DNA of 46,180 nt, taken from positions 148,408-194,587 of the forward strand of contig NZ_AOJE01000012.1 in NCBI RefSeq assembly GCF_000337915.1, given 5' to 3'. Position 1 is the stretch's first letter, and the number at the start of each line of letters is the position of its first letter. Source of the stretch: Halorubrum saccharovorum DSM 1137. GTDB lineage: Archaea > Halobacteriota > Halobacteria > Halobacteriales > Haloferacaceae. Positions 14,079 through 26,533 of the stretch are shown one piece after another. The notes beneath the pieces were generated by a model. It was not told the DNA's origin and did not search any database. It saw only the letters and a list, made by a program, of their open reading frames with translations. The position numbers were made by a program, and so were the translations under genes.

Positions 14079-14621
14079 TCAATCGTCCAAGACGACCTTC
14101 TGGAGATAGAACCACCGGAGCGACCACAGCTGGTAGGATATCGAGATAACGAACGCGAACAGGAACACCGTCGCAAACAGCAGCGATTCGACCCCGGCGA
14201 AGAACGCGACGTTCGTGTCAGCCGCCACGACGCTGATGAGTCCAAGCACACCGAGACTTCGGTAATAACTATCCCAAGTGATACCCAGCGGCGTGACGAC
14301 GTTCATGTACACGTCGATCTCGCGGGCCGTCTCGCAGAGGGAGACAATCTTCTCGTCTCTGTCGAAGTCAACGAATCCGAGCTCTTCGAGCTTCGGCAGA
14401 TGAGTCTGGCTCAGCGTGTTGTAGACGCTCTGGCGGCAGTCCCGGGGCGGCGGTGACTCACCCACTTCGCGTTCGGCGATATGGTCGGATAGCTCGCGGA
14501 CCTCGACCGGTCTGAGTCGCTGTTTGAGATACTCAAGCGCCAGCCGCCGCCGGTCGTTTCGGAGGACATCGTGGATCTTCTTCGTATCGGTGCGGTCTCG
14601 ACGTAGTCGCTGTGTGAACAT
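14079..14621 (-). CDS. Membrane-anchored winged-helix regulator (DUF7344-like), left copy
   Basis: Read from the ATG at 14621 the product is 180 residues. Upstream in-frame codons to 14690 are rejected because a minus-strand TATA-like AGCTATATG lies there. Residues ~12-100 form a winged-helix domain (IHDVLRNDRRRLALEYLKQ, then RQSVYNTLSQTHLPKLEELGFVDFD), as in the haloarchaeal DUF7344 family. Two hydrophobic helices follow (~122-170). It is clearly paralogous to the protein at 27067-27660: both share the pattern LxNxRRR...S-V-L-TH-LPK. It is divergent from the first TasA-like gene, so it probably regulates that locus (inference). Confidence 0.75.
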   Translation of the reverse strand: MFTQRLRRDRTDTKKIHDVLRNDRRRLALEYLKQRLRPVEVRELSDHIAEREVGESPPPRDCRQSVYNTLSQTHLPKLEELGFVDFDRDEKIVSLCETAREIDVYMNVVTPLGITWDSYYRSLGVLGLISVVAADTNVAFFAGVESLLFATVFLFAFVISISYQLWSLRWFYLQKVVLDD

Positions 14622-15033
14622 GTGTGACAGCCCAATTGGGTACGGTCTGTATTCAGCCAGTATGACATAATGACCGTATCCCTCGTTCATATAGCTTTCT
14701 AAACATCATTTTTCTGACTTGAATAGCGACGTGAGATACTCGACGGTAGCTAGTCGATCGATTACCGCTTCTTCGCTTCAGGCACCACAATCCGCCCGAG
14801 TAATCAGTTGTTGTGGTATTTCAATCTCTGCCTGACGTGTCACAGGGATCGCTTGACGGATTACAGGGTAATGTTGAGCTAAAAAATACCATAATTCTTA
14901 AACTTCAACTGCGGGTTAAATCCACTGAACACTACGTTCAAGAGAACTGAGGTGTTAATAACTTTAAATTGGGGTGCCAATGGGTTGGGTACGTTCGGAC
15001 CACCCGTGACGGGTGGAACCGGACATCAAACCC
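14622..15033. promoter_or_regulatory. Divergent control region before the TasA-like locus
   Basis: This 412-bp AT-rich intergenic region holds a minus-strand TATA-like box near 14687-14695 for the regulator and a plus-strand one, ACTTTAAATT (14961-14970), for the first surface gene. TGGTATTT (14814-14821) and AAATACCA (14884-14891) are widely spaced inverted repeats that could be binding sites. A 7-bp hairpin, CCACCCG/TGA/CGGGTGG (15000-15016), lies in the leader just before the ATG. Confidence 0.55.
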
Positions 15034-16059
15034 ATGTCAAACGACAGCAAATACAGTCTCTCCCGGCGGAAGGCGCTACTCGGACTCGGCACAGTCGGTG
15101 TCGCCGGCGCCGGCGCTGGGGTCGGAACGAGCGCACTGTTCAGTGACGAGGAAGAGTTCGATGAAAACCAGATCACCGCCGGGACGCTCGACATGGCGGT
15201 GAAGGCCGAAGTCGTCGCAGCGAACGAGTACTGGAGTAACCAGGGTATCCTCGGCAACCCACTCACGGCTGACGGGGACGTGGTACAGAATTTCCAACTC
15301 AATGACGTTAAACCGGGCGACTGGGCCATCATTTGCTTCACCGTGGATTCGGTTGGTAACAACCCATTCTACCTGACGATCCACGGGGACGCGGAGGAGT
15401 ACAGAGAAACAGAAGGTACCAGCACGGAACCCGAAGAGGATGCTGACGGCAACACGACGGACGCCGGCTTCGAACCGGTCACCGCCACGAACGCCGAGCT
15501 GGGTGACAAGCTCCTCGTGAGCTACTGGGAGCAGTGGGACGGCACGGCACCGTCGGAAGGTACCCAGAGTGGCGACAAGAGCAACCTAGCGCGGATGGAC
15601 AGCATCAGCAACACGGAGTCGAATACGTACCCGGCCCCGACTACTGACGATGGTGTCCCGGAATATCAGGAACCGGGTGAGGACGGGGTCGTCACTTCAG
15701 GGACGCTCGGCTACACGGACGCCCGCGAGTTCTACTTCGGACTGGACCAGGATCCCAATAATCCGGGCACCGGTAACGACCCACTCGGAAACGGCATCGC
15801 GAGCGGCGACGGTATCCTCGTCGGTGGGGTGAGCGATCCCGTCCAGGTCGGGTCAACCGACACGAACGAAATTGGTCGGCCCCGCATGGGTGACCCGGAC
15901 GGCGACGGTGAGGCTGAACTCACCTTCTACCTGCTGCTCGAACTTCCCTCGGAGGTCGGCAACGAGATCCAGGGCGACGCCGTGAAGGGCAACCTCAGGT
16001 TCAGCGCCGAGCAGGTCCGGAACAACGACGACCCGCGCAGCGGCAGGAACTCGTCGTAA
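15034..16059 (+). CDS. TasA/CalY-like SipW-dependent exported protein (S1)
   Basis: The ATG at 15034 is preferred over an in-frame GTG at 15013 that lies in a hairpin. The 341-residue product begins with a twin-arginine signal (SLSRRKALLGLG), a Gly/Ala-rich hydrophobic core and then TSALFSDEEEFDENQITAGTLD. That is the SipW-type arrangement; Bacillus TasA has TWAAFND followed by SGTLDL. The host domain follows: LNDVKPGDWAIICFTVDSVGNNPFYLTI near residue 90 and LPSEVGNEIQGDAVKGNLRFSAEQVRNND near the C-terminus, matching S2 and S4. It is the simplest member, so perhaps the main filament subunit (inference). TATA-like sequence at 14961 and a 7-bp hairpin precede it. Confidence 0.82.
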   Translation: MSNDSKYSLSRRKALLGLGTVGVAGAGAGVGTSALFSDEEEFDENQITAGTLDMAVKAEVVAANEYWSNQGILGNPLTADGDVVQNFQLNDVKPGDWAIICFTVDSVGNNPFYLTIHGDAEEYRETEGTSTEPEEDADGNTTDAGFEPVTATNAELGDKLLVSYWEQWDGTAPSEGTQSGDKSNLARMDSISNTESNTYPAPTTDDGVPEYQEPGEDGVVTSGTLGYTDAREFYFGLDQDPNNPGTGNDPLGNGIASGDGILVGGVSDPVQVGSTDTNEIGRPRMGDPDGDGEAELTFYLLLELPSEVGNEIQGDAVKGNLRFSAEQVRNNDDPRSGRNSS

Positions 16060-16092: not shown

Positions 16093-16187
16093 GACCCACG
16101 CCGGCGCACGAAACCCCTCGAATAGTTATCGAGGGAGCTGAACGCGGGCTTCGCCCGCAAACGGCGGTTCGACTCCGCCGGTGGGTC
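16093..16187 (+). promoter_or_regulatory. tRNA-like leader element A
   Basis: GACCCAC (16093-16099) pairs with GTGGGTC (16181-16187). Immediately before the latter is a T-arm, CGGCGG-TTCGACT-CCGCCG (16162-16180), whose 7-nt loop fits the tRNA TTCRANY rule. Between them are a 7-bp hairpin with a 7-nt loop (CCCTCGA, 16115-16121, with TCGAGGG, 16129-16135) and a 6-bp hairpin GCGGGC/GCCCGC (16144-16158) resembling a long variable arm. No D-arm is evident, so it is not a tRNA. It ends 21 nt before the S2 start codon. Confidence 0.75.
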
Positions 16188-16202
16188 TTCCCCAGGAGGG
16201 GA
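16188..16202 (+). promoter_or_regulatory. Shine-Dalgarno inside a small hairpin before S2
   Basis: TCCCC (16189-16193) can pair with GGGGA (16198-16202), loop AGGA. The only strong Shine-Dalgarno seen in this locus, AGGAGG (16194-16199), lies in this loop and stem, 9 nt before the ATG at 16209. Pairing would limit ribosome access. Confidence 0.5.
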
Positions 16203-16208
16203 CGAACA

Positions 16209-18245
16209 ATGTCAAGCGACAACAAATTGGAACTCTCGCGGCGTAAGATCCTCGCCGGTATGGGCGCGGTCGGCGCGGCCGGCGCCGGCGCAGGGATCGG
16301 AACGAGCGCGCTGTTCAACGACACGGAGAGCTTCGAGGATAACCAACTGACCGCTGGGAGCCTCGACCTCAAGATGGACTGGGAGGAACACTACTCCTTC
16401 CCACAGATCTACGACGACTTCGGCGATCCAACAACGGAGACCGATCCGGACACGGAGGATGAAGTCCCACTGGACATCACCCGGTCGGATCCGAACGATA
16501 GCCGATACGTCGGTCTCCCGGATCCGGAGAACCCTGTAGTGTGGGCGAACGCTCAAGACGACCCGCTTGGTGATGGGCAGTCCAGCCTCGAACTGTACTT
16601 CCAGAACACGACCATCGAGGCGTTCCCAGACCGTTTGGGCGGTGAGAATCCGGAGGCGACGTTTACGTCGATAGACAGTGGGGGCGAACCCATCGTCGAG
16701 AACCCGTGTGATGCTTTGGCGGACGTTCCGCAAGACCTGAGTACCTTCGCCACGGACGGCATGCCGGCTCGGACACAGAACGGGGACACGAACGACGACG
16801 GGGACGGGCTCCCCCTGCTCAATCTTCAGGACATCAAGCCCGGTGACTTCGGGGAGTTCACTTTCAGTGCGCACCTCTGTGATAACCCCGGCTATCTCTG
16901 GATGACGATGCCCGGTGGGCTCACTGAGAGTGAAAATGGCCTCACAGAGCCGGAAGACGAGGTAGATGACACGCCAGACGAGGGCGAACTCGCCGAGAAC
17001 GTTCAGACGGCCCTGTGGTACGACGATGACTGTGACAACCAAATCGATACGGCCCCGGACGACATCGTCGCACTAGCGATTATTGACACGTCGGGTTCGG
17101 TGACACCCAATCTTCAGCAAACGATAGACGCCGGGAACGCGCTGGCTGAAGATCTGTTCGAAGCGAGCCAAAACAACCCGGAATTGGAGGTCCAAGCGGG
17201 TGTCATCACGTTCGAAGGTAAAGGTGATAACAACGACGTATTCCTCGCAAATCCGATCGAGCCGATCGACAACTACGTCGATAATAACGGGGACGGGATA
17301 TTCGGGAGCGGCGATATTCTGCCGCCAGGACAGACCGACGGCAACTCGCCGATTCCGCAGGCTCTCGACGTGGGACGCGAGTATCTCAATGACAAGGCTG
17401 CGAAGCTCGTCAGCGACGGCACCCTCGACGCTCCCGTCAGCAAGCAGTTACTCCTCATCTCAGACGGTAATCCCGTCTACGACACTAGCGGGAATCTGGA
17501 CGCGGTGGCAGGTGAACTGATCGATGAAAACGGCCAGTTCACTTTCGACGGCAACACCTACGAGTCGGACTACTTCGACGGAAAAGCAAACGGTAGCGGT
17601 CTGGCGTTGCCGAACCCTGGCAACCCACCCGGCGCCGAAGACCGGGCCGAAACGGCGCTCGTCGCACGGGACATCGACGGGGAACCGTTCCTGCCCGGTA
17701 CCCAGTACTCGCAACCGGCCGGTCCGAAGGTCGACAATCCCGATAACCAGCCCCAGGGACTCAATGGCAGTGACCCGGCAGACATCTCGGGTGACAACGA
17801 TATCATCGTCCGTGCCGCAGCCGTGTACGATTCCGGTGCCGGATCCGGTACCAAACAGCTTGCCCGCGACACGATAACGGCGTACGCGACGAGCGACGCG
17901 ACGATGTACGACATTCCCACTGCGGGCACGGGTCAAAAGAGCGGGGGCACCGTTGTCGGTGAGGATATCGCGGATGCGCTGACCGCAGGTGGGTCCGGAG
18001 AAGAGGTCATCTTCCGCGGGACGCTCGAGCAACTGGAAAGCGAGCTAGACCCTGGTCTGGCTCTCGACTTCGACCGGACGACGTCCGAGCAAGACTGCCA
18101 TCCCGCCGGTGTGACCCACTGCTTCGGTCTCGCGTGGTGGGTACCCGAAGACGTCGGCAATGAGATCCAGAGTGACTCGGTGAGCTTCGACCTCGGGTTC
18201 TACACCGAGCAGTGCCGGAACAACGACAATCCGACCGGACCCTGA
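16209..18245 (+). CDS. TasA-like exported protein with inserted von Willebrand A domain (S2)
   Basis: This 678-residue protein has a twin-arginine signal (LSRRKILAGMG) and SALFNDTESFEDNQLTAGSLDL. The TasA-like host domain is split. The first part contains LQDIKPGDFGEFTF and CDNPGYLWM (to residue ~275). The second part resumes with RGTLEQLESELDPG and ends WWVPEDVGNEIQSDSV plus FYTEQCRNND. Inserted at ~285-600 is a vWA domain: MIDAS DTSGS in ALAIIDTSGSV, the threonine region QTDGNSPIPQAL, and LLLISDGNP. It probably displays a metal-dependent adhesion module on the surface filament. An AGGAGG precedes the start and tRNA-like element A lies upstream. Confidence 0.85.
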   Translation: MSSDNKLELSRRKILAGMGAVGAAGAGAGIGTSALFNDTESFEDNQLTAGSLDLKMDWEEHYSFPQIYDDFGDPTTETDPDTEDEVPLDITRSDPNDSRYVGLPDPENPVVWANAQDDPLGDGQSSLELYFQNTTIEAFPDRLGGENPEATFTSIDSGGEPIVENPCDALADVPQDLSTFATDGMPARTQNGDTNDDGDGLPLLNLQDIKPGDFGEFTFSAHLCDNPGYLWMTMPGGLTESENGLTEPEDEVDDTPDEGELAENVQTALWYDDDCDNQIDTAPDDIVALAIIDTSGSVTPNLQQTIDAGNALAEDLFEASQNNPELEVQAGVITFEGKGDNNDVFLANPIEPIDNYVDNNGDGIFGSGDILPPGQTDGNSPIPQALDVGREYLNDKAAKLVSDGTLDAPVSKQLLLISDGNPVYDTSGNLDAVAGELIDENGQFTFDGNTYESDYFDGKANGSGLALPNPGNPPGAEDRAETALVARDIDGEPFLPGTQYSQPAGPKVDNPDNQPQGLNGSDPADISGDNDIIVRAAAVYDSGAGSGTKQLARDTITAYATSDATMYDIPTAGTGQKSGGTVVGEDIADALTAGGSGEEVIFRGTLEQLESELDPGLALDFDRTTSEQDCHPAGVTHCFGLAWWVPEDVGNEIQSDSVSFDLGFYTEQCRNNDNPTGP

Positions 18246-18283
18246 CTGCTCGGCGAGACGGTTCGTCCCCTCCCGCGCAGTTC

Positions 18284-18418
18284 GCCCACTCGGAGCACGG
18301 CGCCACCGGCATCGGCGGCCCGTGACGCGGCCTCGCAGCGGAACGGCGTCTCCGGCTCTGCCGGAGGCTCGTTGCGCAGCTTTGCTGCGGAACGGCGGTT
18401 CGACTCCGCCGGTGGGTC
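18284..18418 (+). promoter_or_regulatory. tRNA-like leader element B
   Basis: The T-arm and acceptor 3' strand (18393-18418) are identical to element A: loop TTCGACT at 18399-18405 and GTGGGTC at 18412-18418. The 5' partner CCCAC is at 18285-18289, in sequence similar to element A (CGG and GCACG follow). Between them are hairpins CTCCGG/CCGGAG (18350-18366) and CGCAGC/GCTGCG (18375-18389, loop TTT), at the same places as the two hairpins of element A but different in sequence. It ends 26 nt before the S3 start. A 6-bp hairpin CATCCC/GGGATG (18420-18434) follows. Confidence 0.72.
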
Positions 18419-18444
18419 TCATCCCTCTGGGATGACACACACCT

Positions 18445-20085
18445 ATGTCAGACGATAAATTCGAGCTGTCGAGGCGGAAGATCCTAGGTGCGACAGCGGC
18501 CGTCGGTGTCGCCGGCGCGGGGGCGGGCGTCGGGACCAGCGCGCTGTTCAGCGATGAAGAATCGTTCGAAGACAATCAAATTCAGGCTGGTGAACTGAAT
18601 CTGCTCATCGATTACGACACTAGCTACGATTTCAACGACCCGGAAGGCGACGGTAGCGGCACGATCGATGGTAACCCTGCTGACTACTCGTACGTGTTGA
18701 CCAATGTCAAGCCGGGCGACAGCGGAACATTGGTGTTTTGTCCCAAAATCATCGACAATCCGGGGCACCTGTTCGTCGCAAGCGCAGATGGAGTTACGAA
18801 CTACGAGAACGCCCAGACCGAGCCTGAAGGGGATGTTGACGCGTCTGGCGGCGGGAGCTTGACTGGGGGCAATGACGGCGAACCCAATGGTGACCTCGGT
18901 CAAGAAATCCTTGCCGATGTCAAGTACGTGGAAAACGTCACAGACGCTACCACTTACGACGAGATTGGAACAGTCACAACCGATCAGACCCTCAACGGAC
19001 TAGCTGCGGATCTTGAAGCGGGATTCCGTGTGGACGGTGTGCCCAACGATTCAGATACGGTTTACCCCTCATCGCCTGACGACAGCACTCAAAACGGTCC
19101 GTGTATCGCCATAGAATGGGAACTGCCCGTTACTGTCGGCAACAAAATTCAGTCGGACGCGGTCGAGTTCAGCTTCAGCTTCGCTGCTGTCCAGAGCCGG
19201 AACAACTCCAACCCGGCTAACCCGGTTACAACCGTCTCTGTCGGGCCTTCGGGTGGTGGATACGACTATAACGACCTTTCGACGGCACTGAGCAATGAGA
19301 GTGACGAGGTTATTGGCCTCGCTGGCGGTGAGACGTTCACACTGTCCGGCGGTGCTGATGTCGACTCCTCGCTCGTGCCACTCGGGTTCCAGTCAATGCC
19401 GACAGTCGAAGTTGACGGGGGGCAGTTAAAGCTCACCTCTACTGACCTCACAATCGCCGGATTAGATATTGACCTGCTCAACGGCGGAGTTGTGTATAAC
19501 CCGAATCCGGCTGACGGGTTGGCATTTATTAATAACGACGTATCAATCTCTGAAACCAGCAATCACGGTATTCGAATCGAAGGTCAGGGAGCGTTGAACG
19601 CAGTCGTCGCAAACAACCAATTCGAACAGAAGGGAACGCCATTTGACACGAATGGCGAGTTCCCCCAGGGCGTGCACCTGAGTGACGGCCAGAACGTGGT
19701 GATTTCGGATAATGTGTTTACTACTAACGGGAGCGTTGTCGAGGGTCAGGCAGTCTTCGTCTCGCAGGGTCCGGGTGATGTGGGACCCACATCGAACATT
19801 GTAGTCTCAGACAACTCGATGAATGGATGGGAGAACGGAGTTACAATCATTGAGTCTCAGGCTGATGAGATATTTGACATCTCGATTGCTGGAAACGACG
19901 TGGACAATTCATCGAATAGCATCTCTCCGAGCAGTCCGAGTATCAACCCCGCTGATGTCTGGATCTTAGATCAAACCGATAGCGACGGCTTCGACAATAT
20001 CAACGGCGAGGATACTGAGTCTGATCAGGAAAGTGCGCTTGAGAGTGATAACAATCTCACTGAAGGAGCAGATGTGGTTGTCTAG
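18445..20085 (+). CDS. TasA-like exported protein with C-terminal parallel beta-helix (S3)
   Basis: This 546-residue protein starts MSDDKFELSRRKILG (twin-arginine) with SALFSDEESFEDNQIQAGELNL. The TasA-like domain covers ~40-250: LTNVKPGDSGTLVF, DNPGHLFV, then WELPVTVGNKIQSDAVEFSF and QSRNNSNP. From residue ~255 a right-handed beta-helix region follows (YDYNDLSTALSNESDEVIGLAGG..., then NNDVSISETSNHGIRIEG, NNQFEQKG, DNVFTTNGS, DNSMNGWENG), typical of NosD/pectate-lyase-like carbohydrate-binding or -cleaving proteins. No catalytic acids can be assigned. Third-position A/T is higher than in the flanking core genes. Probably a glycan-interacting surface module. Confidence 0.8.
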   Translation: MSDDKFELSRRKILGATAAVGVAGAGAGVGTSALFSDEESFEDNQIQAGELNLLIDYDTSYDFNDPEGDGSGTIDGNPADYSYVLTNVKPGDSGTLVFCPKIIDNPGHLFVASADGVTNYENAQTEPEGDVDASGGGSLTGGNDGEPNGDLGQEILADVKYVENVTDATTYDEIGTVTTDQTLNGLAADLEAGFRVDGVPNDSDTVYPSSPDDSTQNGPCIAIEWELPVTVGNKIQSDAVEFSFSFAAVQSRNNSNPANPVTTVSVGPSGGGYDYNDLSTALSNESDEVIGLAGGETFTLSGGADVDSSLVPLGFQSMPTVEVDGGQLKLTSTDLTIAGLDIDLLNGGVVYNPNPADGLAFINNDVSISETSNHGIRIEGQGALNAVVANNQFEQKGTPFDTNGEFPQGVHLSDGQNVVISDNVFTTNGSVVEGQAVFVSQGPGDVGPTSNIVVSDNSMNGWENGVTIIESQADEIFDISIAGNDVDNSSNSISPSSPSINPADVWILDQTDSDGFDNINGEDTESDQESALESDNNLTEGADVVV

Positions 20086-20093
20086 ATAACAGC

Positions 20094-20136
20094 AGGACAC
20101 CGAACGATACACTCAAACACGGTGTATCGGTGTTCT
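20094..20136 (+). terminator. Hairpin after S3
   Basis: ACACCG (20097-20102) and ATACAC (20107-20112) pair with GTGTAT (20122-20127) and CGGTGT (20128-20133) to give 12 bp with a 4-nt bulge. No strong U-run follows, so this may be a 3'-end or processing structure rather than a simple terminator. Confidence 0.4.
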
Positions 20137-20141
20137 GTCTA

Positions 20142-20180
20142 CCCACGCTGGCATTTCGCCGGTTCGATTCCGGCGGTGGG
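20142..20180 (+). promoter_or_regulatory. tRNA-like leader element C (compact, compensatory change)
   Basis: CCCAC (20142-20146) pairs with GTGGG (20176-20180). The T-arm is CGCCGG-TTCGATT-CCGGCG (20157-20175). Compared with A, B and D one stem pair is flipped G-C to C-G and one free loop position changes C to T, so both pairing and the TTCRANY loop rule are kept. Only 10 nt (GCTGGCATTT) separate the acceptor 5' strand from the T-arm, giving a minihelix. A hairpin TCCCC/GGGGA (20184-20200) and then the S4 start at 20216 follow. Confidence 0.75.
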
Positions 20181-20215
20181 CATTCCCCACGGACGGGGGA
20201 GCGAGGGGAGAGACC

Positions 20216-22600
20216 ATGTCAAACGATAACTCGGGACTATCGCGGCGGAAGATCCTGGGGAGCGTGGGAGCAGTCGGTGTGGCTGGAGCCGCAGCTGGAG
20301 TTGGGACGAGCGCGCTCTTCAGCGATGAGGAATCGTTTACAAACAACTCGATCACTGCGGGGACGCTCGATCTGAAAGTCAGCTGGGACGAGCACTACTT
20401 CAACGGGATTCGAAATCTTGACGATGTCTCGGAGGCGAACGTCGAGTTCGACAGTCCAGGTTCCACAGAGACTGGCTTCCCGAGCTCGAGCGGATCGCCG
20501 TATTTGTCAGTTACTGACGGTGCCGTAGATACGTTTATGAACGACACGCGCACCGAACAGTTCCCGGATGGCGGCCTCGGATCGAATGAGGATCCCTGTG
20601 AAGAACTGGCCGACGTGCCGGGGGCAGAGATCCCGCCACCGGTTATAGATCTGGACGACGTGAAGCCGGGCGACTTCGGCGAGATCACGTTCGATTTCTC
20701 GCTATGTGACAACCCCGGCTACCTCTGGATGACCGGTGAGTTAGTGAGTGAAAGCGAGAACGGAGTCACCGAACCTGAAGGAGACAGTCCTGAGGAGGAC
20801 GGTTCCTTCGACAATTCGTCGTTGTGGCCGCTGGCTGCGCTGACAGGGGTGTCGGCGCTTAACCGCGATGGAGAAGACGGTGGAACCAGTTCAGAAGCGA
20901 CCGGAGAGACTGACTCACAGACGACCGGAGCCAGCCGAAACAGCCTCTGGTCGACCCTCGGTAAGGGAGCGGCGATGACGGGCGCTGGCGTAGCCGGGCT
21001 CTCGGCGCTGACGGGGTCGGCGTCAGCGCAGTCGGGATTCAGTGTGACTTCGCTTGCCGATGACTCTTCTCTCTCTGCCACCGACCTCGCAGATTCGCTT
21101 ATCGCGGGCGGAAGCGGTATCAGTATCAACAATGCGTCGTTCACCGGCGCGGGTGCTGCCGGCGGCACATTCAGCGGCGGAAGTAGCGTGTACAATCTCG
21201 ACGGCGGCGTTATTCTAAGCACCGGTGACGTGGGAGACATTGTCGGACCGAATGATAGCGACGGTACAAGCACCAGTCACGACACTCCTGGTGATAGTGA
21301 CCTCCTCGCGATTGCGGACGACACAGTCAACGAGACGAACGATGCTGCCGTTCTTGAGTTCGACTTCGACGTTCCACAGGGCGAAGAAGAGGTGTTCTTC
21401 AATTTCGTGTTTGCCTCGGACGAATACAACGAGTTCGTCGACGAGTTCAATGACGTCTTTGGGTTCTTCCTCAATCCGGAGGATAACTCTCCCGAAGACG
21501 CCAACGTCGCGCTGATAAACGGCGATCCCGTGTCGATTAACACCGTCAATACGATGGATAACTCGGACGTGTTCAACAACAATGATCCGAGTGACACGGA
21601 CACCCCGTTCAATACCGAAGCTGATGGGTTCACTGATGTTCTTCAGGTAGAAGCCGATGTCAACCCTGGCGAAGAGAACACGTTCAAACTGGCAATTGCT
21701 GACGCAAACGACACCGCACTCGATGCCTGGGTGCTCATCGAGGGCGAGAGCCTGAGTACCGACCCCGACCCCGACCCACAGCCGGGGGACGGCGAAGTCG
21801 AACTCTCTGACAAAATACAGGCACGCGCGTGGTATGACGGTGGTGGCGGTAACGGTCCGGGCGGTGATGTCGGAGATAACGTCAACCAAGACGACGAGCA
21901 GGTATTCCTCGACGGAACGCTCAGGCAGGTACTTGGCGCCCTCTCAAGCGGTAAGGGGGTCCCGCTCGACGGCGACGAGTCGACAGATACGGACTTCGAC
22001 GAAACGAGCGATCCACCTGACGACACAGCCCGAGATTGCTACACTGCGGCTGACGATGTCCACTACATCGGGTTCGAGTGGTGGGTGCCGCGAGAGGTTG
22101 GTAACGAGATCCAAAGCGACTCGGTGACGTTCGATCTCGGGTTCTACACCGAACAGTGCCGGAACAACGACGGGTCCGGTACCGCGACCAATGGCGGCTC
22201 CGCCAGCCAGAACGCCAGCATCACCGTCAATGGCGATTCTTCCGGCGATGGCGGAAACGAGCAGCACGTCGTGAACATAATCGTCGGCAGTGAGGACGAC
22301 GGGGATTCGCTGAACGAGGTGGTTGTGGATTACCAGAGCGGCTCCGCCGACATCAGTAACGTCGGTCAGGGAGACCTCACCCTCTCCCAGAATGGCACGG
22401 ATATTACTGGCGATATCAGCGGCGTGTCGGGAGGTAACAACGGTACGACGTTGACAGTCACTATAGGAGGCAACAACACGCTCAGCGCAGGCGATTCACT
22501 CACGCTGGAAACGAACAACGAAGTGCAGGATTCGGGTGCTGACGGCGGCACCGCAGAAATCAGCGTCAACGGGGGGACGACGAGCAACGCGGCGTTCTGA
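20216..22600 (+). CDS. TasA-like exported protein with inserted choice-of-anchor-L domain (S4)
   Basis: This 794-residue protein has a twin-arginine signal (LSRRKILGSVG) and SALFSDEESFTNNSITAGTLDL. The first half of the host domain includes DVKPGDFGEITFDF and CDNPGYLWM (to residue ~190). At ~205-515 there is an insertion with a second signal-peptide-like segment (STLGKGAAMTGAGVAGLSAL, then ASAQSG near residue 269) and a choice-of-anchor-L domain (FNFVFASDEYNEFVDEF, NDVFGFFLNPED). The host domain resumes with IQARAWYD, LDGTLRQVLGALSSG, WWVPREVGNEIQSDSV and FYTEQCRNND. The last ~130 residues are Gly/Asn/Ser-rich beta sequence. Confidence 0.83.
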   Translation: MSNDNSGLSRRKILGSVGAVGVAGAAAGVGTSALFSDEESFTNNSITAGTLDLKVSWDEHYFNGIRNLDDVSEANVEFDSPGSTETGFPSSSGSPYLSVTDGAVDTFMNDTRTEQFPDGGLGSNEDPCEELADVPGAEIPPPVIDLDDVKPGDFGEITFDFSLCDNPGYLWMTGELVSESENGVTEPEGDSPEEDGSFDNSSLWPLAALTGVSALNRDGEDGGTSSEATGETDSQTTGASRNSLWSTLGKGAAMTGAGVAGLSALTGSASAQSGFSVTSLADDSSLSATDLADSLIAGGSGISINNASFTGAGAAGGTFSGGSSVYNLDGGVILSTGDVGDIVGPNDSDGTSTSHDTPGDSDLLAIADDTVNETNDAAVLEFDFDVPQGEEEVFFNFVFASDEYNEFVDEFNDVFGFFLNPEDNSPEDANVALINGDPVSINTVNTMDNSDVFNNNDPSDTDTPFNTEADGFTDVLQVEADVNPGEENTFKLAIADANDTALDAWVLIEGESLSTDPDPDPQPGDGEVELSDKIQARAWYDGGGGNGPGGDVGDNVNQDDEQVFLDGTLRQVLGALSSGKGVPLDGDESTDTDFDETSDPPDDTARDCYTAADDVHYIGFEWWVPREVGNEIQSDSVTFDLGFYTEQCRNNDGSGTATNGGSASQNASITVNGDSSGDGGNEQHVVNIIVGSEDDGDSLNEVVVDYQSGSADISNVGQGDLTLSQNGTDITGDISGVSGGNNGTTLTVTIGGNNTLSAGDSLTLETNNEVQDSGADGGTAEISVNGGTTSNAAF

Positions 22601-22623
22601 TCTGAGGGCGCTATCGGAGGTCT

Positions 22624-22665
22624 GACCACGCTGGCCTTTCGGCGGTTCGACTCCGCCGGTGGGTC
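22624..22665 (+). promoter_or_regulatory. tRNA-like leader element D
   Basis: The T-arm and GTGGGTC (22640-22665) are identical to A and B; the 5' strand GACCAC (22624-22629) gives four direct pairs with GTGG and more across a bulge. GGGTC at its end can instead pair with GACCC at 22676-22680, an alternative hairpin. It is followed 20 nt later by ATG at 22686, which opens only a basic, non-haloarchaeal-looking frame whose first codons (MTN...RR) recall the twin-arginine signals. The gene it served may have decayed. Confidence 0.68.
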
Positions 22666-22997
22666 TCGAGAAACTGACCCGACACATGACAAACTCGCAC
22701 CGACCGCATCGACGCACGATGGAGGGCGCCGCCACTCGCGGAGCACTCCACACGAGTCACATCTGCTCGAAGATCGACGACGAAATCCGCCGAGCGCCGA
22801 GGCTAAACCTGACAGCCAAACAATTATTATACTGGCCGAGAGATAGTCACGCGAAGCGCGTCCGAGGCGATCCTGTGGACGTGTTTGACAACGCCGAGTG
22901 GGCCTCGACTCCCGCGCATTCCGGCGGCCGTGCGTCTCAGAGTGGCGGTAGGGTGACCGGTCGAAGCGACGCAACTACATCCAAACACGGACCGTAG
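22666..22997 (+). pseudogene. Possible decayed TasA-like gene start plus promoter of S5
   Basis: The frame from ATG 22686 (103 codons) is rich in Arg and His and unlike a haloarchaeal protein. Its position 20 nt after element D and its MTNSHRPHRRTMEG start resemble an eroded version of the N-terminal codons of S2-S4. Within it lies a TATA-like ATTATTATAC (22823-22832) that is the best promoter for S5 at 22998. I regard it as noncoding today. Confidence 0.35.
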
Positions 22998-23729
22998 ATG
23001 ACAGACCTCAGCATAAATCGGCGGCGGCTGATCGGCATGCTCTCAGGCACCGGGATGGCCGCATTTATCGGATTCGGGTATGCGACCGGGGACTCGATCA
23101 GGTACACGTACGCGTCTTCTCACAGTTGCGACGATTACACGCTTGACGCCGAGTGGCGAGAAACGTACACCAGAAACGGGGAAACAACTCTGCTTGAGGA
23201 CACGACGCCGGACGGAAGCGGAAGCGAGCCTGACGAGCCCGGACTTATCCGGTTAAACAACGTACTCCCGGGTGACAGGGGGACGGTCAGTTTCAGCCTC
23301 ACGGCTGACTTGGCGAATCCCGACGCGAGCGACACGGTCTCGCCGACGCTTGGAATCAGTCTTACCGACCGTGCCGAAAACGGTCTCAGCGATCCTGAAG
23401 AAGCCGCGGGAGACACCACTGAAACGGTCGGCGAACTCCAAGAATACCTACAGGTCACCGTCTGGAAGAACACGGGTGTCTTGGGACTCGATGCGCTCGG
23501 TGCCGACGACCTCACTCAGCAGATCACCGAGCCGACGATATCGGAGGGGACGCTTGCCGACGTAGCTGGCGATACGAGTAACGAAGTACTCGGAACTATC
23601 GACGCCACTACGGACGACGATTCCGTTTCGGTGACGCTCCGATGGAAGTTTGCCAACGACGCACGCGTCAACGAGACACAAACCGATTCAGTCACGTTCG
23701 CACTCGATATCGGCTGTGGAGGTGACTAG
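22998..23729 (+). CDS. Divergent TasA-like exported protein (S5)
   Basis: This 243-residue protein starts MTDLSINRRRLIGML (twin-arginine plus hydrophobic stretch) but lacks the FSD motif that marks the other members. The remainder keeps the host-domain landmarks: LNNVLPGDRGTVSFSL near residue 82, DRAENGLSDPEE near 129, and a C-terminal NETQTDSVTFALDIGC corresponding to the IQSDSV.FDLGFYTEQC end of the paralogues. There is no inserted module. Processing by the SipW-like peptidase is less certain here. It may be an assembly or capping subunit (inference). Confidence 0.7.
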   Translation: MTDLSINRRRLIGMLSGTGMAAFIGFGYATGDSIRYTYASSHSCDDYTLDAEWRETYTRNGETTLLEDTTPDGSGSEPDEPGLIRLNNVLPGDRGTVSFSLTADLANPDASDTVSPTLGISLTDRAENGLSDPEEAAGDTTETVGELQEYLQVTVWKNTGVLGLDALGADDLTQQITEPTISEGTLADVAGDTSNEVLGTIDATTDDDSVSVTLRWKFANDARVNETQTDSVTFALDIGCGGD

Positions 23730-23872: not shown

Positions 23873-24979
23873 ATGCAAGAGCCGGACCTGACCCGTCGAC
23901 AGGTGCTCGCGGGCATCACCGTGACCGGCGGGGCCGGGGCGCTCACCGGGAAGGGCACGATGGCGGTCTTCTCGGACGAGGAAACGTTCACGGGCAACTC
24001 CATCACCGGGGCGGCGAGCACCGCGGGCGCCGGTGTGGTCGAACTGGAAGTCAGCGCCAGTTCGTCCGGCGACGGAGACAGACTCGTCTACACGATCGAT
24101 GTCCCTGATTTGGTCAACAATAATCCGTCGTACGTCTGGGCTCGGCCGGCGACGTGTCCCGAGCCGATCGATGCGGCTGCAGACGTGTACGTCGAGCTCC
24201 GGGCGGAGTGCGGCGACGACGACAGCGCACTCATAGCTGAGGGGACGCTCAAGAGTGTCGTCAACAAACTGCGCGAAGACAACGGAGAGCCGCTGCGCTG
24301 TCAGGAGGGTGACGATGCGCGGTGTTTCCGGCCCGGTGAGAGCGTCGACTTCGTGTTGGATGTAACAGGGTCGAACACTAACGAGGAGTTCGCTTTCGAA
24401 TTCGAGTTCTACGCGGAGCAGTGCCGGTACAACACGGGAACGGACACGCCGTTCGGCCCCTTGAGTCCTTGTGAGCCGACGAACGAGACGGGTGGAAAAG
24501 CGATCAGTTTCATCGCATTCTGTTCCGAGTCCGGCACTCTCACCCCGCAGGTTACCGATATAAATAGCACGGACGATGATGGACCGACATCGGTCGACTG
24601 GGAGACCGACGGCGACGTGGATTACGTAGTCGCAAAATCCGGACAGAATTTCACAGTGTACGATTACCGCGACGACTCTGCGACGAGGGGTACAGTGACC
24701 ACGGGTGGCGATGAAAACGCCGACTTCTACGGTGCGGTGTCGGGAAGTGTCGAAGACGGCTTTGAGCCCGCTGAGGGTGATAGTAGCGGTGACGCGAACA
24801 ACGGTGGAGCGAACGGCTTGTCCGGTCAGAGTAACGAGAAGAGCGGGAAGGGTGGTAATAGCGCATCCTCGGCTCCGGGCGAACTGTCAGCAGATCTCGT
24901 TAGTCAGGACGACTTCCCCGATAGCGGAACGTCGATCAAACTGGAAGAAACCGATAACACGTTCGAGGAAAAGCAATGA
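23873..24979 (+). CDS. TasA-like SipW-dependent exported protein (S6)
   Basis: This 368-residue protein has a twin-arginine signal (DLTRRQVLAGITV) and a SipW-type junction, MAVFSDEETFTGNSITGA. Its host domain is truncated or permuted: VDIPDLVNNNPSYVWA, IAEGTLKSVVNKLREDNGEPL, and an ending FEFEFYAEQCRYNTG matching the family's C-terminal block. It then continues as a Gly/Ser/Asn-rich, probably disordered tail with a small beta unit (SVDWETDGDVDYVVAKSGQNFTVYDY). It overlaps the peptidase gene by ATGA, the tightest substrate-peptidase pairing in the locus. Confidence 0.78.
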   Translation: MQEPDLTRRQVLAGITVTGGAGALTGKGTMAVFSDEETFTGNSITGAASTAGAGVVELEVSASSSGDGDRLVYTIDVPDLVNNNPSYVWARPATCPEPIDAAADVYVELRAECGDDDSALIAEGTLKSVVNKLREDNGEPLRCQEGDDARCFRPGESVDFVLDVTGSNTNEEFAFEFEFYAEQCRYNTGTDTPFGPLSPCEPTNETGGKAISFIAFCSESGTLTPQVTDINSTDDDGPTSVDWETDGDVDYVVAKSGQNFTVYDYRDDSATRGTVTTGGDENADFYGAVSGSVEDGFEPAEGDSSGDANNGGANGLSGQSNEKSGKGGNSASSAPGELSADLVSQDDFPDSGTSIKLEETDNTFEEKQ

Positions 24980-26145
24980 CTGAGACTGATACTTCGACCG
25001 CGACCTCGGACCAAGACGGCAGGGACATCCCCTGGCGGCGGACCGCGAACGTCGTCGGCGTCGCCGTACTCATCGCCATCGTGGTTCCGTTCGTCGTTTT
25101 TGCAGTTCCACAAGTCGTCGGTGCCGACCAGAGCTACGTCGTCCTCTCGGGGAGCATGGAACCGGCGATGAGTCCCGGCGATGTCATCATCGTCAACAGC
25201 GTTCCGGCCTCGGCGATCGAGCGAAACGATGTCATAACGTTCGGGGGGCAGGGAGGGGATACTCCAACGACCCACCGCGTGATCGATGTGGTCGAGCAGG
25301 ATGGCACTACGGCGTTCCGAACGCAAGGTGACGCGAACGAAGATCCAGACGGGTCGCTCGTCACCCCAGACCAACTCCAAGGGAAGGTGCTTTCGCCCGG
25401 CGGCTACCTACTGGTTATTCCGCTCATCGGATACCTCATCAACTTCGCCGGCACGCAATCCGGGTTCGCTCTGTTTGTTGCCTTGCCCGTCTTGTTACTC
25501 GTACTTAACGAGATCTGGAACGTCATCGCCTCGGCTCGTTCAACTCCGAACACCGGTGGCAACTCCAGCGCTGAGACGACGGCCGACGCAGCGGCCGCGA
25601 CCACCGCCGACACCTCCGAAGGAGAGCCGACTGAGCCAAGTAGGGCAGAGACGACCGAAGCAACGGGACAGCACAACAGTACCGCTGCGGCGTCCGACGA
25701 GGCCGATGCGGGGATCAGCTTCACCGCTGCGGAGCTGCAGCTTGGACTGGGAGTGAACGCGGCGTTTCTGGCGTACAGCATCTGGGTGGCGTACAGTCTC
25801 TGGACGGCCTACGACACGGTTGAAACGTGGGCGCTCGGCGTTGCCGGCGGCGTGGGCGCGTCGCTTCTTCTGCTCGGTGGACTGTACGTATTCGGCGGCG
25901 CCGACGACGCGACAGATGAGGCGGAGACCGATTCCGGTTCAATCTCCCAGCAGGACCAGCCCGTACAATCAGCGAACGAGACTGCCGCAACCCACGACAA
26001 CGGAGACATCATAGCTAGAGCCGAGGCGTCCGATGACCCCGTCCCTCAGCGAACCAACGGTGACGGACAAAGGGCGTCTTCTAAAGGCGACGACGGCGAT
26101 TCGGTTGCGGAGACCAGCAGTTCGGGGGGTGAAACCGATGCATAA
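24976..26145 (+). CDS. sipW: SipW-like type I signal peptidase (S26B) with second membrane domain
   Basis: This 389-residue protein contains one TM helix (residues ~25-48), then the S26B catalytic site: Ser60 in VVLSGSMEPAMSPGDVIIV and His100 in DTPTTHRVIDVV, followed by FRTQGDANEDPDGSLV. ER/archaeal-type enzymes of this class use a Ser-His arrangement. A second TM follows at ~144-178. It then extends beyond the family's usual ~190 residues with a Thr/Ala-rich linker, three more hydrophobic helices (~255-310) and an acidic tail. It probably cleaves the A-FSD signals of S1-S7. Its ATG overlaps S6 and its stop overlaps S7. Confidence 0.88.
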   Translation: MTETDTSTATSDQDGRDIPWRRTANVVGVAVLIAIVVPFVVFAVPQVVGADQSYVVLSGSMEPAMSPGDVIIVNSVPASAIERNDVITFGGQGGDTPTTHRVIDVVEQDGTTAFRTQGDANEDPDGSLVTPDQLQGKVLSPGGYLLVIPLIGYLINFAGTQSGFALFVALPVLLLVLNEIWNVIASARSTPNTGGNSSAETTADAAAATTADTSEGEPTEPSRAETTEATGQHNSTAAASDEADAGISFTAAELQLGLGVNAAFLAYSIWVAYSLWTAYDTVETWALGVAGGVGASLLLLGGLYVFGGADDATDEAETDSGSISQQDQPVQSANETAATHDNGDIIARAEASDDPVPQRTNGDGQRASSKGDDGDSVAETSSSGGETDA

Positions 26146-26533
26146 CCGTACACTCCTCTCACTCGTTCTAGCGGTGTTTCTGGTGACAGCTGCGGCCTCA
26201 GGCGGTGCGACGGTCGGTATTCTCTCCGACAGCGAGACGGTTTCAAGTACGCTCTCTGTTGAGAACTCTTCGGAGCCGGTCGAGATTACCAACACCTCTA
26301 CCAACACCTCTACCAACACCTCTACCAACACCTCTACCAACACCTCTACCAACACCTCTACCAACACCTCTACCAACACCTCTACCAACACCTCTACCAA
26401 CACCTCGACTCAGATCACAGACGCAAACGAGACAACTGACAAGACCGGAACTGAGAATTTGGCGACACCGACTTCAGCCGAGGTGTCGACGAACAAGGCC
26501 ACACAGCATACGTCGTATGATGGACTAGACTAG
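26138..26533 (+). CDS. Small SipW-type exported protein with NTST repeat (S7)
   Basis: I start at the ATG at 26138, which overlaps the peptidase stop by 8 bp; earlier in-frame codons lie inside the peptidase gene. The 131-residue product has an N-terminal hydrophobic signal ([18 protein letters not shown]) and [16 protein letters not shown], a clear SipW-type junction without twin arginines. The rest is ten perfect NTST units (residues ~52-91) and a Thr-rich tail. Each NTS is an N-glycosylation sequon, so the mature protein would be a densely glycosylated, extended stalk. The N-terminal SAV-type strand might copolymerise with the TasA-like subunits (inference). Confidence 0.72.
26291..26410 (+). 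repeat. Ten 12-bp tandem repeats encoding NTST
   Basis: Nine consecutive exact copies of AACACCTCTACC and one variant (AACACCTCGACT) run with no interruption. The unit is a multiple of three, so copy-number change would alter protein length without a frameshift. Perfect identity, including wobble positions, points to recent expansion. Confidence 0.92.

Follow-up and report, generated by a model that had tools for sequence, protein, structure and literature searches.

The window analysed here, the whole stretch of 46,180 nt from Halorubrum saccharovorum DSM 1137, contains a row of surface-protein genes on the plus strand that extends to a SipW-like archaeal signal peptidase I (24976-26145; TIGR02228, NF046067). 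The products of genes 1-4 match TIGR04088, the family of SipW-type signal peptides. Gene 1 (15034-16059) has an AT-rich leader and no RNA element upstream, gene 2 (16209-18245) directly follows element A, gene 3 (18445-20085), the product of which shows a weak beta-helix match, directly follows element B, and gene 4 (20216-22600), which additionally encodes a choice-of-anchor L domain, is located behind element C and in front of element D. Gene 5 (22998-23729), 333 nt 3' of D, and gene 6 (23873-24979), which overlaps the signal peptidase gene, encode RR-type signal peptides as judged by eye. The row combines SipW-type signal peptides with a signal peptidase I of the archaeal/SipW type, just as SipW/TasA matrix-protein operons include a dedicated signal peptidase beside such signal peptides (TIGR04088, TIGR02228); the locus differs from these in having RNA elements between its genes. 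A divergent DUF7344 gene (14079-14690, minus strand) adjoins the row, and the same neighbour is present beside related operons. Between D and gene 5 (22686-22997) lies a small open frame of doubtful coding capacity, a gap of similar length being present in the array of a congener (L276), and the gene after the signal peptidase contains tandem repeats encoding Asn-Thr-Ser-Thr (26205-26420).

Four acceptor/T-arm elements among the surface-protein genes

Four elements, all on the plus strand, are interspersed among genes 1-5. The sequence-only reading had placed four copies of one RNA design at 16093-16187 (A), 18284-18418 (B), 20142-20180 (C) and 22624-22665 (D), each with a 6-bp stem closing a TTCGA(C/T)T loop and a GTGGG for which CCCAC or CCAC further upstream is the partner. 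We find all four at these positions with these parts in each of them, the shorter CCAC belonging to D. The shared core consists of CCCAC, a linker, the T-arm CGNCGG-TTCGAYT-CCGNCG and GTGGG. The loop conforms to TTCRANY with G before and C after it, as claimed for a T-arm, the T-stem having 6 bp instead of 5, and the acceptor helix stacks on the T-stem to give about 12 bp in total, D being weak in this respect with four acceptor pairs.

Element A has a 7-bp acceptor helix formed by GACCCAC (16093-16099) and GTGGGTC (16181-16187), a linker (16100-16161) with GG at 16103-16104 and two hairpins, and the T-arm CGGCGG TTCGACT CCGCCG (16162-16180). It is followed at the predicted cut between 16187 and 16188 by a hairpin, TTCCCC-AGGA-GGGGA (16188-16202), 6 nt from the ATG at 16209. 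In element B the acceptor strands GCCCAC (18284-18289) and GTGGGT (18412-18417) enclose a linker (18290-18392; GG at 18292-18293) with inserted hairpins and the T-arm (18393-18411), and a hairpin CATCCC-TCT-GGGATG (18420-18434) lies 5' of the ATG at 18445. Elements C and D represent the minimal form. C comprises CCCAC (20142-20146), the linker GCTGGCATTT (GG at 20150-20151), the T-arm (20157-20175) and GTGGG (20176-20180), with the hairpin TTCCCC-ACGGAC-GGGGGA (20183-20200) 5' of the ATG at 20216; its T-stem, CGCCGG/CCGGCG instead of CGGCGG/CCGCCG, has pair 3 flipped by a compensatory change, and its loop differs solely at the free position, both in line with the sequence-only reading. D comprises CCAC (22626-22629), the linker GCTGGCCTTT (GG at 22633-22634), the T-arm (22640-22658) and GTGGGTC (22659-22665), and is the weakest copy, having neither a downstream hairpin nor a surface-gene start directly behind it. 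The covariance model R1, trained on mRNA-linked copies alone and on no pre-5S sequence, detects C with an E-value of 5.6e-9 and D with 3.1e-8. The distances from the ends of A, B and C to the ATG are 21, 27 and 35 nt, in agreement with the 21-35 nt claimed for three of the copies.

Searching both strands of the 46 kb for a stem plus TTCRANY loop returned A-D only, four sites in all; 50 Markov-chain randomisations averaged 0.82, with the T-arm alone and neither GTGGG nor its partner being required. For A, B and D the minimum obtained by unconstrained folding is another fold, in which the T-arm does not form. Under constrained folding the acceptor plus T-arm fold lies 1.2, 1.0, 0 and 0.1 kcal/mol above the energy minimum for A, B, C and D, respectively, and this together with the covariation described below settles the ambiguity for A, B and D. 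The elements are not tRNAs, as had been stated: ARAGORN reports 0 tRNA genes in the window, Rfam 15 yields no match reaching the gathering threshold and no tRNA match there, and a complete cloverleaf with anticodon arm and D-arm is absent.

Covariation and distribution across haloarchaea

Altogether we gathered 231 non-redundant element copies from haloarchaea. In 49 copies with a short linker, selected partly by pairing, 92.2% of the cells pair, both partners change in nine of the 13 pairs, and covariation scores 0.214 versus 0.098 after shuffling (reached by 0/500). Because pairing had contributed to the selection of these copies, we ran a selection-free test on T-stem pair 3, which the search pattern leaves free: it is Watson-Crick in 121 of 135 non-redundant copies (shuffled mean 78.8, maximum 95 in 10,000 shuffles). 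Where the 3' acceptor strand is unlike GTGGG, its own complement is present upstream in 14/18 cases. A congener (G142) has an orthologous four-element array in which B, C and D each carry T-stem pair 3 flipped relative to the window, amounting to three double changes. The structure of both stems is under selection.

In the G142 orthologue of A the linker measures 8 nt and the extra hairpins are absent, showing that the two hairpins of A in the window are dispensable inserts; the claim that the extra hairpins of A and B occupy a conserved position is therefore only partly right. Of 221 copies, 207 have a GG among the first 6 nucleotides of the linker, compared to 101 after shuffling, and by analogy this GG probably stands in for G18-G19 of the tRNA D-loop. 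The sequence-only reading, which mentioned neither the linker GG nor the hairpin following the element, was correct on the absence of a D-stem, but its phrase 'no D-arm' passes over this conserved D-loop-like GG.

Matches adjoin SipW-type genes in many genera, in favour of the sequence-only reading, and for 191/231 copies a gene encoding an RR-type signal peptide begins no more than 150 nt further downstream. We took prevalence figures from pattern searches, since the phylum-wide model search, scoring 16 candidates per genome, is lossy. With one mismatch allowed, the T-arm plus GTGGG pattern occurs in 94 of 170 genomes from the family to which the window belongs, and the exact pattern in 91/392 genomes and 35/95 genera of the order, the reversed-pattern control giving 0 in both searches. 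In a collection of 84,980 species the exact pattern matches 108 stretches, nearly all of them haloarchaeal. Carrier genera include Halorubrum, Halobellus, Haloarchaeobius, Halobacterium, Natronomonas, Natronorubrum and Halosimplex, with copy numbers differing among genomes; Haloferax-like genomes appear to carry the pre-5S copy alone. We discarded four pattern matches being real tRNAs or located inside tRNA arrays (L202, L230, L232, L257) and two that look like chance (L239, L246). A degenerate T-arm, GCGGTTCGAGACCGC, which violates the Y60 rule, lies 5' of a SipW-type gene in Halorubrum ezzemoulense (L263:8880-9050).

Among 412 SipW-type genes the element precedes 169 of 218 later cistrons, defined as lying closely behind another SipW-type gene, versus 43 of 194 first or isolated genes, a class overcounted where the locus is cut; 49/218 later genes lack it. 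Annotated operons of Natrialbaceae agree with this later-cistron placement. Those of Natronorubrum bangense, N. aibiense, Natrarchaeobaculum sulfurireducens and Halomontanus rarus are laid out like the window, with elements between consecutive SipW-dependent genes and a signal peptidase I behind. In a set of Halobellus/Haloplanus-type operons the element is located in the leader of the first gene, where it is preceded by a conserved AATTAGCTATGGGGGT-like stretch, and a DUF7344 gene adjoins divergently. Leader elements of first genes were seen at L064, L074, L086, L102-L104, L106, L107 and L109, many of them behind a conserved stretch resembling CTCGCAATTAGCTATGGGGGT, and the neighbouring DUF7344 gene belongs to the same family as that at 14079-14690 of the window. 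The suggestion of the sequence-only reading that the elements split a polycistronic mRNA accords with the placement before later cistrons but is incomplete: about one fifth of the first genes have the element within their leader, so that operon splitting is not the sole role, and a maturation of the 5' end of each message fits better.

The distance from element to start codon has a median of 25 nt, and an AT-rich 8-mer is present between element and ATG in 4.7% of cases. Upstream of internal elements AT-rich 8-mers occur in 9.5% compared to 24.5% for first genes. This scarcity at internal elements and before the ATG makes own promoters for the internal genes unlikely. We set aside a promoter downstream of the element, which would have spoken against the original proposal, as none fits: there is too little room, and AT-rich 8-mers occur there in less than 5%.

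Relation to the pre-5S t-element and proposed function

Model R1 also finds haloarchaeal pre-5S rRNA elements with E-values of 1e-5 to 6e-5 (L139, L142-L145) and further ones in other genomes of several families, i.e. one model recovers the mRNA elements and the pre-5S elements together. The genome of the window itself has one element 5' of its 5S gene, and in three genomes, including this one, the 5S start according to Rfam lies 3 nt past the acceptor strand. According to PMC4326828, PMC3296008 and PMC7521656, a tRNase Z cut at the pre-5S t-element of Haloferax volcanii makes the 5' end of 5S rRNA, and t-elements are substrates of RNase P and tRNase Z; the underlying studies, as reported in PMC4326828 and PMC3296008, are those of Holzle et al. 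2008 and 2012. Assays with purified H. volcanii tRNase Z have been published (PMC3296008). The first 17 nt of a primer given in PMC4326828 are identical to the pre-5S element of genus g9, suggesting that g9 probably is Haloferax. The H. volcanii t-element resembles the elements reported here in the succession of acceptor strand, GG linker, T-arm and acceptor strand, with the mature RNA starting 2-3 nt further on, a start that for the mRNA copies is a predicted one. The elements reported here differ in preceding protein genes, in being repeated in one operon, in often having inserted hairpins and in being followed by a short hairpin and start codon.

A 12-bp ruler of six T-stem pairs, five acceptor pairs and one more pair, with the discriminator base behind it, places the predicted cut 2 nt past the GNNGG strand. 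The genome encodes a tRNase Z gene and an RNase P RNA gene. For the 231 mRNA-linked copies the 24 nt past the predicted cut fold with a mean of -6.7 kcal/mol versus -3.3 kcal/mol for shuffled sequences, and in 188 of them pairing starts 0-2 nt from the predicted cut. The usual form past the cut is TTCCCC-loop-GGGGA and then the start codon, hairpin and start codon of the mRNA copies lying at a fixed short distance behind the element. The location of the hairpin at the predicted cut suggests that the mature message would begin with the hairpin.

We consider it likely that the elements are tRNA mimics that signal RNA processing in the manner of the pre-5S t-element and stand before the cistrons of haloarchaeal SipW/TasA-like surface-protein operons. 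By analogy the fold probably marks the points at which a long mRNA is cut into single-gene messages, and a role as a 5'-end maker for each message covers both internal and first-gene elements. From the observed structure, covariation, distribution, position and pre-5S relation we infer the cleavage, the enzymes involved, the end protection and the stoichiometry of the following model. In the transcript, CCCAC and GTGGG would pair and the resulting helix would stack on the T-stem of 6 bp, and the GG of the linker would probably dock onto the T-loop like G18-G19 of tRNA. tRNase Z would read the 12-bp stack and cut 2 nt past GTGGG, and RNase P might cut on the 5' side. The downstream cistron would thereby become a message with a short 5' hairpin (TTCCCC-loop-GGGGA) directly next to the start codon, the hairpin presumably protecting the message end, and the upstream cistron would keep a tRNA-like 3' end or be trimmed back from it. 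Co-transcribed fibre subunits could in this way obtain separate stabilities and hence separate amounts. Several observations speak against the model: the T-stem of 6 bp, the four acceptor pairs of D together with its missing hairpin and its 333 nt to the next surface gene, the slight energetic preference of A, B and D for other folds, the 43 first or isolated genes with and the 49 later genes without the element, and the apparent restriction of Haloferax-like genomes, in which the enzymology was performed, to the pre-5S copy. We lean slightly towards the full version of this model, a tRNA-free 'tRNA punctuation' of protein operons in which a minimal mimic shared with pre-5S rRNA directs one tRNase Z cut giving a tRNA-like 3' end and a hairpin-capped 5' end, with subunit ratios being set post-transcriptionally.

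The fold and hairpin might instead act as a cis-regulatory RNA without cleavage, governing the translation of each cistron, e.g. by masking the ribosome site or as the target of a tRNA-binding protein. We regard this as unlikely, although it would account for element and hairpin lying 20-30 nt 5' of the start codon, for their presence in the leader of some first genes and for element-like folds before several surface-gene families, including those of DUF1102 proteins. The 5S rRNA has the same fold as a processing site where there is no start codon to govern, the conserved features (12-bp stack and T-loop) are those read by tRNase Z and RNase P, and a Shine-Dalgarno-like sequence is about equally frequent in genes with (54%) and without (56%) the element. 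Excision as a small stable RNA acting elsewhere, with operon cutting as a by-product, appears improbable to us: cuts by RNase P and tRNase Z would indeed free an RNA of 40-135 nt and the inserted hairpins vary among copies, but the inserts vary even among orthologues with the processing core alone being conserved, and the fixed distance at which hairpin and start codon follow speaks for the downstream message. Still more improbable are DNA recombination sites, according to which the 29-nt T-arm repeats are seams of exchangeable surface-gene cassettes in the manner of tRNA T-arms serving as integrase sites. Arrays of paralogous genes parted by near-identical 29-nt repeats in copy numbers differing among genomes would be expected from such seams, but the compensatory double changes preserve pairing and not sequence, 4/4 copies of the window are oriented with transcription and three lie just 5' of start codons, the identical fold precedes 5S rRNA, and the annotated operons examined contain no integrase. 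Functionless tRNA pseudogenes or chance T-arm repeats, suggested by the resemblance of A and B to type II tRNAs with missing arms, have a negligible probability given that 231 copies share core, covariation, position and orientation and that the exact pattern is found in 91/392 genomes of the order versus 0 with the reversed pattern.

The proposed processing of the surface-protein messages at tRNA-mimicking signals has parallels in other systems. In mitochondrial polycistronic transcripts real tRNAs between coding genes mark the cuts; the elements described here imitate a tRNA minimally, lacking both D-stem and anticodon arm, and the short form has no additional arm at all. RNase P reportedly cuts polycistronic operon mRNAs of E. 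coli between cistrons, a finding ascribed to Li and Altman 2003, a study cited in PMC11143913, and the proposed cut by a tRNA-processing enzyme between cistrons is alike; the E. coli sites are not known to be conserved acceptor/T-arm modules that recur within a single operon family throughout a class. The kind of signal, as in the pre-5S t-element, and operon cutting by tRNA enzymes elsewhere are thus already known. In the open-licence literature we found no paper covering both SipW and haloarchaea and no description of such elements beside haloarchaeal SipW genes, with Holzle et al. 2012 possibly listing mRNA-linked Haloferax copies. Within the literature searched, a conserved and repeated tRNA mimic punctuating protein operons across haloarchaea appears to be new. 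If our model is true, tRNA-processing enzymes would be routine archaeal mRNA processors acting on a cis-signal conserved across several haloarchaeal families, which would provide a concrete account of separate expression from co-transcribed surface-fibre genes, and the signal might offer a ready cistron separator for haloarchaeal genetics. The nucleotide-exact prediction, the assayed H. volcanii tRNase Z and the cultured genera with long arrays make the model directly testable.

Elements of this design also occur in other contexts. In the genome of the window a copy with CTCGC/GCGAG, the linker AGTGGTGTG and a hairpin next to it (L117; G000:C37:1614-1655) has no SipW-type gene nearby. At L044 (G007:C2) a good element with CCCGC/GCGGG is located 3' of a short gene and is followed by a strong hairpin and no start codon. 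The same minimal design is present in Pediococcus acidilactici (L155), in Lapidilactobacillus (L195, L229, L240) and at L256 and L258; one example reads CCCAC-TCTGGTGACACG-CAGCGG-TTCGATT-CCGCCG-GTGGG, and ARAGORN reports no tRNA and Rfam no match for the design. These copies separate genes in a lysogeny-like module, with a tyrosine integrase encoded further downstream.
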